From: Micromonospora rubida
GTDB taxonomy: Bacteria > Actinomycetota > Actinomycetes > Mycobacteriales > Micromonosporaceae
NCBI RefSeq assembly: GCF_009908295.1
Contig: NZ_JAAALO010000002.1
Coordinates: 905,490 to 969,489, forward strand
DNA length: 64,000 bases
Direction: 5' to 3'
Part shown: positions 39,352-44,649 of the stretch, piece after piece
How positions within the stretch are numbered: the stretch's first letter is position 1
How the letters are laid out: every line of letters starts with the position of its first letter
The notes under the pieces: model-generated
What the model was told of the DNA's origin: nothing
Databases searched by the model: none
Seen by the model: only the letters and a program-made list of their open reading frames with translations
Translations under genes and position numbers: made by a program

Positions 39352-39405
39352 CCCGTCGCCGCCCGGAGGAGCGCCTCGTCGAGGCGGGCGCGACCCGGCC
39401 GACCG

Positions 39406-40029
39406 TCAGAACCGGTAGCCCGGGGGCAGCCCGGTGCCGCGCAGCTCGGGCGGCAGGTGGGCCACGTCGTTGACGGCGATCAGGGTCGGCGGGCCGCCGT
39501 CGGAGTAGCGGATCACGGTCAGCCCCGCGTTGTGGTGGCTCAGCCCCAGCCAGCGCCCGGCCGGGGCGTCCAGCGCGTGCCGGACCAGCCAGGCGATCAG
39601 GAACGTGTGGGTGACCACCAGCACCCGGTCGTCGCCGTCCTCCGGCGCGGTGGCGAACCGCGCGACGGCCGCCGCCGTCAGTCGCGGCCCGTCGACCCGC
39701 TCGCTCGCGGAGAACCCGGCCAGGAGCCTCGCGTACGCCGGGGGCAGGCCGGCCGGGTCGGTGTCGTGCGGCAGGTGGTCGCCGGCCAGCTCCGTCGCGT
39801 ACACCGGGATCCCGGGCAGCGACCGGGCGACCAGCCCGGCGGTCTGCGCGGCCCGGGGCAGCGGCCCGTGGTGGACGGCGGTGAACGGCACGCCGGCCAG
39901 CCGCTCGCCGAGCAGCGCCGCCTGCCGCCGGCCCCGGGCGGAGAGCCCCACCTCCGGCGGGTCGTCCGTAGTGCCGGCGGGCACGTCCTGCTCGCCGTGC
40001 CGGGCCAGGAACAGCAGGCGGCTCGCCAT
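39406..40029 (-). CDS. Histidine phosphatase family protein
   Basis: This 207-residue protein begins LLFLARHGEQD, the RHG catalytic motif with the phospho-accepting His. SARGRRQAALLGERL, HHGPLPRAAQTA and VLVVTHTFLIAWLVRHAL supply the second His and the other conserved Arg. Substrate unknown. Three starts stack at 40029-40035 (ATG, ATG, GTG); the ATG at 40029 best fits the GAGG site. Confidence 0.92.
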   Translation of the reverse strand: MASRLLFLARHGEQDVPAGTTDDPPEVGLSARGRRQAALLGERLAGVPFTAVHHGPLPRAAQTAGLVARSLPGIPVYATELAGDHLPHDTDPAGLPPAYARLLAGFSASERVDGPRLTAAAVARFATAPEDGDDRVLVVTHTFLIAWLVRHALDAPAGRWLGLSHHNAGLTVIRYSDGGPPTLIAVNDVAHLPPELRGTGLPPGYRF

Positions 40030-40092
40030 CATCACCTCGTACGGGTCGGGAGGCGCGATGCTAACTGACGCCTCCCGACCCGCCCGCCCCGC

Positions 40093-41020: not shown

Positions 41021-41065
41021 TGGAGCCCCCGGCTGGAATCGAACCGGCGACATCTCGCTTACAAG
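41021..41065. repeat. Partial copy of tRNA-Thr 3' half (attachment-site-like repeat)
   Basis: These 45 bases match 43116-43160, the 3' half of tRNA-Thr including the CCA end, with two mismatches. They have the same orientation as the tRNA. The distal copy left by site-specific integration at a tRNA 3' end has exactly this form. Downstream there is only weak further tRNA similarity. Confidence 0.85.
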
Positions 41066-41318
41066 CTCTTCAGAGTACGCGGGCCAGTCCGGCAATGGCC
41101 GTGCCCGGACCGGGGCTCCTCGCTGGGCTCTTCCGCACGTCGCCGTTCGGGCTCGTTGCTGCCAACGTCGCTCTCGACGTTCGGATGTGCCACCGAGCGC
41201 GAACCCCGCCGGTGGATAGTGACCTGACGTAGCAGCGAGTGTGGTCAAGTGCCGCATCGCGTGGTCAGACGTATCGATCGTGTCGTCGGCATGATCGAGA
41301 GTCGCCACGTGAAACGGA

Positions 41319-42026
41319 TTAGTCAAGATCATCGCACGCGCTCTGCACGGTCCGTGGCCCGGCGTGGCCCAGACGAAACCGGGCAGCAAGGTCATCGGCA
41401 AGGTCAGAAGCATCACGTGAGCCGTCGATGGTTACCACCGGCAGGTGCAGTTCGACGGCCTCCCGCCGGACTTCTGCATCCCACAGTTCATCGCGAGCAA
41501 GTCGCCGAGCGAGCGCCTTGCCGTGATCGCTGTCTCCCCAGTTCATTCGGGCTCTCTGGACGTCGGCGAATCGAGCCCGCAATGCCCGTTCCCTGAACTG
41601 TGGCGTTGGCAGGAGGAAGGCGGCCTGCTGGGGCCAGATCAGCAGCGGAGCAACCTCGCGGGGCAGGGTTCGGAAGTCATCGACCAGGACCGGATGCTCC
41701 GTGGGCATCGCCAGCAGGTCATCGACAACAAACCCGAACGTTTCCCCGCGCATGCTCGGCATCGACTCGAAGACTTCCTGTGCGCTGCGGCCATTCCACG
41801 TCTGCGCCAGTGGAGCTTGCAGCAACGCCCACAGGTACGGCTGCTTCTGGGCGGTGCACCGGCTGACGTAGTCGCGCTCCGCGCGGTCCCCGTCGTAGAT
41901 CAGCACGTCGTAGCGCTCGGCTAGGACCTGGGCGAGGGTGCTCTTGCCTGAACCCGTGCCCCCCGCGAGCCATCGAACATGCGAAAGGCGGCGAGCTAGG
42001 TCTACAGGATGATTGTCAGCGGCCAT
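41319..42026 (-). CDS. P-loop NTPase/kinase-like protein
   Basis: This 235-residue protein has Walker A AGGTGSGKST (about 22-31), followed by LAQVLAERYDVLIYDGDRAERDY as in nucleotide or small-molecule kinases and (d)NMP/AAA-ATP-binding enzymes. HPVLVDDFRTLP may serve as Walker B. ARRLARDELW and a C-terminal LPVVTIDGSRDASDLAD complete the fold. Substrate unknown. It lies inside the tRNA-flanked islet with less G+C-rich codons. ATG 42026 has no strong ribosome site; the frame is open to 42095. Confidence 0.75.
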   Translation of the reverse strand: MAADNHPVDLARRLSHVRWLAGGTGSGKSTLAQVLAERYDVLIYDGDRAERDYVSRCTAQKQPYLWALLQAPLAQTWNGRSAQEVFESMPSMRGETFGFVVDDLLAMPTEHPVLVDDFRTLPREVAPLLIWPQQAAFLLPTPQFRERALRARFADVQRARMNWGDSDHGKALARRLARDELWDAEVRREAVELHLPVVTIDGSRDASDLADDLAARFRLGHAGPRTVQSACDDLD

Positions 42027-42157
42027 GCCAAGAGACTGCCGCCTGCGGGCAGAGAAAAGCCGCCAGTTTGGAAGATCGTTCTCGGGCAGCAGCACGGCTT
42101 TTGCAGTCAGCGGTGGCGCGCACCTGCGCGTCGGGCGTGCGGGATACGGTCGCGAAC

Positions 42158-42903
42158 ATGACGTTCATGATGGATGACCCTGATGAGATCGCTGCGGTCT
42201 TGCGAGGAACGGCTTTGGAAGGGCATCCGGTGGAAGAGGGCATCGGGGGCACCTTCCTGATCACCGACGTTGTGCCGGAACATCTCCTCGACGCGTGGCG
42301 AGCGGCGCGTTCGGCGCTACCGAGGACTGGCCGCTGGCCGCTCCTGACTGGCCCCGGCGAGCTTTATCACGAGCCGACAGCCGAGGAAGTCGCTGCACTG
42401 ACCCAAGCCGCCTGCACTCTAGACCCATGGTCTATCTATCACCGCCGGAACGGCGATGAGTTAATTCCCAAGGATGCACTGGACGGCTATTTGACCAGCC
42501 TGCTGGTCATCGATCTCGTTCCACGGGCTAAGAGAGAGTTGGAGCTGCCGACGAAACGGGCGGCGATCGAACGATGGATCTGGGAAACCCTGCTGACGGA
42601 TCCGGAACTCGCGGAGCGCGGCCATCGGAGCGCCGCAAGCTTGGTCGGTACTCGGATCTGGTACACGCCGCGAGAGGTGCAACTCGTGCTGCTGCCGACC
42701 TCGACGCAGTGGCTGGCACCTGCCTGGATCAGCTACTTCGGAGCCACAAGTCCGCAGGGAGTGGAAGGACTTGCTGCGGCCATGCGGCAGTGGGAACGGC
42801 AGTGGGGAGCCGAACTGGTGGCCTGCTGGTCAACCATGCTGCAGTTCGTCGTCACCAGACAGCCGAAGCCTGGTGAAGAGGCGTGGCAGCTCGCGCTTGC
42901 CGT
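42158..42903 (+). pseudogene. DUF4253-like gene, 3' truncated
   Basis: The frame from ATG 42158 encodes about 248 residues with genuine-looking sequence ending in a DUF4253-like stretch (LAAAMRQWERQWGAELV, MLQFVVTRQPKPGEEAWQLALA). After about 42900 the frame turns Arg/Ser-rich, runs antisense through the tRNA gene and overlaps the next gene. The natural C-terminus and stop are missing. Truncation by the junction at about 42900 is inferred. DUF4253 function unknown. Confidence 0.6.
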
Positions 42904-43026
42904 GACCCGAAGCGACGAGAGATCTACGTCCAGAAGGCGGGCCTCCAGCGGGCGGCTCCCCCGCCGGCCGAGGTCCGACAACGCCTGGCGCGCCCCGATG
43001 GGGTCGACCAGGCTCAGCCGCTCGTT
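42904..43026 (-). pseudogene. Gene fragment, unknown
   Basis: On the minus strand about 41 codons (ERLSLVDPIGARQALSDLG onward to DVDLSSLRV) show very high G/C at third positions and protein-like sequence, unlike the opposite strand. No start or stop belongs to it. It abuts the truncated DUF4253-like gene, so two broken genes meet at about 42904. Family not recognised. Confidence 0.45.
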
Positions 43027-43115
43027 CGCCCGACCCTCACGAGCCCGACTACTGTCGGCACTGCTGACACTCCGGCGAGCAACGGCGGCGAGTGCCACCG
43101 AACGCCTTGTGAAAC

Positions 43116-43192
43116 TGGAGCCCCCGGCCGGGATCGAACCGGCGACATCTCGCTTACAAGGCGAGTGCTCTGGCCAGCTGAGCTACAGGGGC
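43116..43192 (-). tRNA. tRNA-Thr (anticodon TGT)
   Basis: The minus strand folds as a cloverleaf: acceptor GCCCCTG with CGGGGGC, D-arm with AGCTCAGCTGGCCAGAGC, anticodon stem CTCGC/GCGAG around loop CTTGTAA (anticodon TGT), and T-arm GCCGGTTCGATCCCGGC. CCA is encoded at 43116-43118. Its 3' half is repeated at 41021-41065, marking it as an integration target. Confidence 0.95.
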
Positions 43193-43557
43193 AGGTCTTG
43201 CGTGGCCAGCATAAGCGACAGACCTCGGGAGTTGTCCCTCGGCAGGCCCTCCCAGCACGGAAAACGCCGATTTGCCGACCCTGTCGGCTGTCATCCGCCA
43301 GCGGGCGGGCGGAACCACGCGGAGATTGATGCCTGCCTGTGCCCGACTGCCCGGAATGTGAATGCCGTCCGTCCCACCCCATGCTTCTCGTCTTGGCAGG
43401 CTGCGGAAACCCGTTTACGGTGCAGTGACACGGATGACAGTTCCGGCGGCCCCCGCTGCCCGGAGCGTCGCCCGGATGGCCGGCGCCACAGGGCGCCGGC
43501 TGCTCCTTCACTCGGATCGTCCGGCACGTTCCTGCCGGTGAGAGGAAGCGCTCCAGC
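43193..43557. promoter_or_regulatory. Upstream region of the sugar ABC ATPase gene
   Basis: No gene is seen in these 365 bases. AAACCCGTTT (43407-43416) is a small palindrome in a slightly AT-richer patch and resembles half-sites of LacI-type sugar regulators, but one copy is weak evidence. GAGAGGAAG near 43540 is the ribosome site region for the next gene. Confidence 0.3.

Positions 43558-44649
<1,092 letters not shown>

Follow-up and report, generated by a model that had tools for sequence, protein, structure and literature searches.

A 2.1-kb islet at the tRNA-Thr(TGT) gene of Micromonospora rubida is very probably a CIME-type remnant of an actinomycete integrative and conjugative element

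We analysed a stretch of 64,000 nucleotides (the window; G000:C12:905490-969489) from the 7.47-Mb genome of Micromonospora rubida (G000), in which ARAGORN finds a single tRNA gene, tRNA-Thr(tgt). Between this gene and a displaced copy of its 3′ half lies an islet of 2.1 kb. Its features are given below in window positions; AICE stands for actinomycete integrative and conjugative element, and the paired 9-mers are presumably arm-type sites and are named accordingly.

41021-41065, minus strand: displaced tRNA 3′ half, the distal att core (43/45 against the tRNA; comparison with the empty site of genome G070)
41155-41175, plus strand: distal paired arm-type site, two 9-mers 12 bp apart, 15/18, at +134 from the att core
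41200-41317, plus strand: partly decayed copy of a 118-bp hairpin-forming sequence known from other Micromonospora genomes
41319-42026, minus strand: intact P-loop kinase-like gene, 235 aa from a conserved start
42158-42916, plus strand: decayed DUF4253 (PF14062) gene (Pfam E 7.7e-11; alignment with five homologs)
42904-42982, plus strand: fossil of the C-terminus of another AICE gene (DNA match 42913-42982)
42987-43032, plus strand: 46-bp fossil of an AICE tyrosine-integrase gene (match to relatives' loci)
43048-43068, plus strand: tRNA-proximal paired arm-type site, degenerate, 12/18, at -68 as in AICEs
43116-43192, minus strand: intact tRNA-Thr(TGT) (ARAGORN, Rfam RF00005), with its 3′ half, 43116-43160, as the tRNA-side att core

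The direct repeat (41021-41065 and 43116-43160) is 45 bp long, is identical at 43 of 45 positions and measures 2,095 bp from start to start. Read on the strand of the tRNA, the order is tRNA, cargo and 3′-half copy, as expected from integration at a tRNA 3′ end. Both substitutions fall in the T-arm half, and by our reading of the alignment one of them disrupts a T-stem pair. The copy ends at the anticodon, and a tRNA 5′ half was not found beyond it (from 41066 on) either by ARAGORN or by comparison of loci. The G+C content of the islet is 64.9%, against 73.3% for the window, and is lower in just 2 of 303 overlapping 2,050-bp tiles, in keeping with the distinct composition that had been noted earlier. 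At 43495-43553, an msiK RNA (RF01747, 47 bits) lies just upstream of a MalK-like ABC ATPase gene at 43558. The 118-bp sequence, directly downstream of the P-loop gene, has matches in 25 of 159 other genomes of the genus, at 79-88% identity over all or part of its length and in several unrelated places; seven aligned copies predict a long hairpin, the arms of which are partly broken in the window. It occurs once in its own genome and has no Rfam match.

A 911-bp query made of the tRNA and the ABC-transporter region could be placed in all 121 genomes of the genus that were searched. From the 120 matching relatives, 81 loci were fetched and read, ten of them shorter than 10 kb owing to contig ends, with genes called by a simple custom script; att copies beyond about 14 kb were looked for in nine genomes and found in three. 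In the closest relative, G070 (94% identity over the 911-bp query, the best of 120), the site is empty: the left flank, whose last base in the window is 41020, meets the tRNA directly, exactly where the copy would start. The empty site of G070 could instead be the product of a precise excision. Six of the 81 loci have additional copies of the 45-bp tRNA tail, 89-100% identical, at a greater distance. Because the G070 flank abuts the tRNA and because of these further copies, the repeat at 41021 is beyond what chance would give, and a tRNA 3′-half copy in the orientation of an integration, as originally predicted, is confirmed. Such a comparison of tRNA-Thr(TGT) loci had been proposed with the prediction, and besides the empty site it revealed variable content across the 81 loci, in which the distance from the tRNA to the AraC gene of the left flank varies from 48 bp to 12.7 kb, some stretches yielding no AraC gene. 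A tblastn search of the 81 loci (at least 45% identity) recovered neither of the cargo genes at this tRNA. Further out, about 0.7 kb of the window (39366-40089) is replaced by about 0.16 kb in G070; the ORF at 39406-40035 within it is one that we take to be histidine-phosphatase-like.

What, then, occupies this tRNA gene in the relatives? Judged from their sequences, these loci are a hotspot for AICEs of the pSAM2 type (integrase, RepSA, FtsK and NUDIX); in PMC3218068, the joint presence of genes for integrase, replication and transfer defines an AICE. Of the 81 loci, 11 have an open integrase frame of at least 400 codons (stop to stop) that faces the tRNA and ends 70-73 bp from it. Integrase fragments of at least 60% identity occur in 11 further loci, and a frameshifted copy in L181, among the same 81. 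In G050 (L101), an element of 12.5 kb between two att copies contains an integrase frame together with genes that Pfam assigns to RepSA (PF20199, 474 bits), FtsK_SpoIIIE and NUDIX proteins. The scan of the G021 locus (L118) covered the family integrase (Phage_integrase) and an HTH_17 protein that precedes it. PLSDB holds no close relative of the family integrase, the best match being 44%. At L102 (G086) and L118, att copies stand in tandem at the same tRNA, and in G085 (L165) two matches to the integrase end of AICEs are 13,135 bp apart; these arrangements suggest, at the level of sequence, that accretion occurs here. Two loci are reduced. In L184 (G104), the same att repeat encloses an islet of 601 bp in front of the tRNA; its proximal arm pair scores 18/18, and it has no integrase match. 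L104 (G102) has an integrase fragment and a proximal arm pair of 18/18, and its integrase is not intact; it is a 5.2-kb contig end, within which a second att copy is absent.

The ends of the AICEs have a recognisable structure. The 9-mer GTTGCTGTC occurs twice, 12 bp apart, in a pair that starts 66-69 bp from the tRNA; this proximal pair scores at least 15/18 in 19 of 81 loci. Of the 11 non-tRNA att copies of relatives, 7 have a distal pair with a score of at least 15/18 at +138, counted from where the distal att core starts; in the other four it was not seen at that place. The distal site of the islet is the sole one with a score of at least 15 in the 64-kb window, and none of 5000 shuffles of the 155-bp stretch matched it. 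The proximal site is weak when taken alone: 48 of 5000 shuffles attained its score at some position and 1 of 5000 at the same position, and 55 of 63,979 window positions score at least 12 for the arm pair. With att cores and paired arm sites, of which the proximal one is weak, the sequence identifies the islet ends as AICE ends.

Two gene fossils lie between these ends. Fifteen of the 81 loci have a match to the integrase fossil, 78-87% identical and invariably located between -332 and -270 relative to the tRNA; its alignment scores are 41-62 per target, and in 300 shuffles the mean over targets never exceeded 22. Beyond 43032, the islet lacks about 200 bp of the integrase 3′ end and picks up again in the arm region that follows the integrase. 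The second fossil has 81-86% identity over 70 bp (42913-42982) in G016 and G103, and at the protein level 77% over 31 columns, gaps included (tblastn E 7.6e-8 within the set of loci). In G103, its gene belongs to an element at tRNA-Arg, where it stands upstream of an integrase-like gene (28% in tblastn) and on the same strand; the interval between them holds an FtsK-like match (34%) and a sequence that matches a further G050 AICE protein at 68%. Two genes of the G103 element are presumably a Rep and a GntR gene. Diverged homologs of the second fossil's gene are found at tRNA-Thr(TGT) in L164 and L104, and both fossils in the islet keep the gene order and strand of AICEs. We dropped the reading of 42908-42986 as an extension of the integrase fossil, since this stretch matched the other AICE gene; against the integrase it gave a modest signal, equalled in 3 of 300 shuffles (11 targets, L102 and L108 excluded). 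A family-wide search with 42900-43115 in 150 genomes returned mainly short matches at chance level.

The P-loop gene has homologs of 75-84% identity in five of the 120 other genomes of the genus and distant or partial ones in 21 more, a patchy distribution that amounts to 27 of 121 genomes with its own included; 31 aligned proteins, 33-85% identical, come from mostly actinobacterial genomes, and homologs also occupy other chromosomal sites. Its predicted structure has a mean pLDDT of 90, a fold search with this model ranks adenylate kinases first (E 5.5e-5, TM-score by query 0.49), and profile matches lie mainly over the Walker-A region of small-molecule kinases. The model thus points to an adenylate-kinase-like protein, a putative small-molecule or NMP-kinase-like P-loop kinase. 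Pairwise dN/dS against three homologs of the genus is 0.17-0.23, which we read as past constraint and not as present function because the broken DUF4253 gene is also low, at 0.26-0.32 against its homologs. The latter gene, with homologs likewise in 27 of 121 genomes (its own included), has lost 18 internal codons (54 bp) and its last 8 codons with the stop, as judged from five homologs; its frame stays open because the downstream sequence to which it is fused happens to be free of stops. The original prediction of a DUF4253-like protein was therefore correct as to the domain, but the gene is truncated at its 3′ end, and the internal deletion and the lost C-terminus rule out a working protein. 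Elsewhere in the genus, a DUF4253 gene in L142 and a sequence matching a protein of the G050 AICE at 72% are about 0.9 kb apart, and in L137-L139 P-loop genes or pieces of them lie 2.3-4.0 kb from a gene that is also on the G050 AICE. These contexts give slight hints that such cargo genes ride on AICEs at other places.

Is the islet still able to move? Six-frame searches of the genome placed no integrase or RepSA match inside it, and Pfam scans of five of its ORFs gave no integrase, replication or conjugation family. In G000, nothing resembles the family integrase more closely than a match of 40% identity over residues 227-408, and two RepSA genes lie elsewhere, at C12:690877-692421 and C32:918306-919895, probably belonging to other AICEs. 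On the basis of these searches, the islet is probably immobile at present. At C12:677703, 13 kb from the first of these RepSA genes, the genome holds a sequence that matches the tRNA end of the islet. The absence of a mobility gene, as first described, thus holds for intact genes, but fossils of an integrase and of another AICE gene are present.

How might the islet have come to its present form? We consider it very probably an internally deleted AICE, a remnant of the CIME type. First, it is flanked by the att sites of the AICE family, with cores and arm pairs at the AICE positions, the proximal pair being weak. Second, two fossils in the order and on the strand of AICE genes speak for derivation by deletion, with no intermediate form seen in the loci compared. 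Third, a conjugation module or recombination genes of its own were not recovered in the six-frame searches for integrase and RepSA or in the Pfam scans of five ORFs. The shortness of the integrase fossil, 46 bp, and the weakness of the proximal arm pair limit the case. We propose that the tyrosine integrase of the AICE family would have inserted the element at the 3′ half of tRNA-Thr(TGT), and that one or more deletions, reaching into the DUF4253 gene on one side and into the integrase gene on the other, would have removed the AICE backbone. The islet, presumably unable to move alone, would persist with one possibly useful passenger, the P-loop kinase. Delivery of the cargo by the AICE is inferred from position, because neither cargo gene occurs at this tRNA in the 81 relatives. 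The integrase-driven insertion and the decayed accessory islet of the original prediction both find support in the empty site, the att ends and the integrase fossil; the AICE origin had been missed.

If an AICE of the same family inserted beside it, the islet might travel in cis. A stronger version, in which the AICE-derived CIME is still competent for recombination, so that an incoming AICE could accrete and carry the P-loop kinase gene, as retained and useful cargo, to new hosts, is rather unlikely. If it were true, the recurrent loss of integrase at one tRNA would offer a natural series of AICE decay and cargo capture.

Other origins fit less well. We consider it very improbable that the islet is a small satellite or non-autonomous cassette without integrase, moving as a 2.1-kb unit through the integrase of another element in trans. 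It does retain both att cores and traces of both arm pairs and carries one intact gene; however, a search of 159 further Micromonospora genomes gave no second copy of the unit and, at best, a 704-bp match that contains the P-loop gene. Its arm sites are degenerate, the genome holds no close integrase, and the remnants of three broken genes point to the deletion of a larger element. The fossils moreover match a conjugative AICE and not a phage satellite, so that the satellite-like character once suggested was not borne out. A phage satellite was rejected as a candidate: PHROGs searches with three ORFs gave at best E 2.6e-4 over 32 P-loop residues, with no phage or satellite gene among them, and the 159 other genomes show no mobile unit shared by several strains.

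An equally poor prospect is a two-gene anti-phage defence islet, in which the P-loop kinase and the DUF4253 protein would be parked together at the tRNA. The patchy distribution of each gene (27 of 121 genomes, its own included) and the integration hotspot are what one would expect of such an islet, but the DUF4253 gene is broken, the kinase has homologs at other chromosomal sites, and PADLOC gave no family for DUF4253 and only E 0.023 over 20 residues for the kinase. Of the 120 other genomes, 7 have homologs of both genes, and the search for P-loop and DUF4253 neighbours recommended in the original prediction found the pair side by side in none of them; with neither a known defence family nor a conserved defence gene pair in the islet, the defence role proposed there is not supported.

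The idea that the repeat at 41021 descends from a second, tandem tRNA-Thr gene that decayed in an ordinary variable intergenic region has next to no likelihood. The 45 bp do come from a tRNA and share the strand of the intact gene, but they halt at the anticodon with no 5′ half after them, and 6 of 81 relatives have the tail again at a greater distance. The region also holds arm sites and fossils of AICEs, G070 with its empty site has no tandem tRNA, and the AICE ends contradict the idea as well. A decayed tandem gene with invariant cargo, named beforehand as an alternative, was looked for in 81 loci and 159 genomes and not found.

The islet can be compared with remnants already described. PMC7563491 presents CIMEs of Streptococcus salivarius as decayed ICEs flanked by att sites, gives 1.2-13 kb for classical CIMEs, a range that includes the 2.1 kb of the islet, and names accretion as the route by which CIMEs move. 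In Streptomyces, PMC4891641 and PMC8369830 call XSAM1 and the TR1 region CIMEs, and PMC4891641 places XSAM1 next to pSAM2 in Streptomyces ambofaciens. Like the CIMEs in these accounts, the islet is derived from an ICE by deletion, keeps its att sites, carries cargo and has lost its conjugation and recombination genes. It differs in standing alone and not in tandem with an ICE, in its origin from an AICE at tRNA-Thr(TGT) and in its degenerate arm sites. With pSAM2-type AICEs, as described in PMC3218068, it shares insertion at a tRNA 3′ half and an integrase gene beside one att site; unlike them, it has no intact integrase, RepSA or recognised transfer gene, and so lacks the set of integrase, replication and transfer genes that makes an AICE. 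That paper also reports that some integrases, a pSE211-type group, have a tRNA-Thr gene as their target, and it refers to remnants of AICEs. Since it was the only paper in the literature searched that joins Micromonospora and tRNA-Thr with integrases or AICEs, the locus may be undescribed, while its kind, the CIME, is already known and its mechanism holds nothing new. Its value lies in the approach: comparison of the same tRNA in relatives reveals what gene annotation would overlook, arm sites and short fossils, and suffices to classify a small tRNA islet without integrase. L184 and L104 look like further products of the same decay, with a proximal arm pair and no intact integrase, their arm pairs being perfect where those of the islet are degenerate; L184, a smaller remnant, also shares the second att copy with the islet. 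Complete AICEs, broken ones and scraps with two ends form a graded series at this locus in Micromonospora, which can be used to study decay and the cargo it leaves behind.
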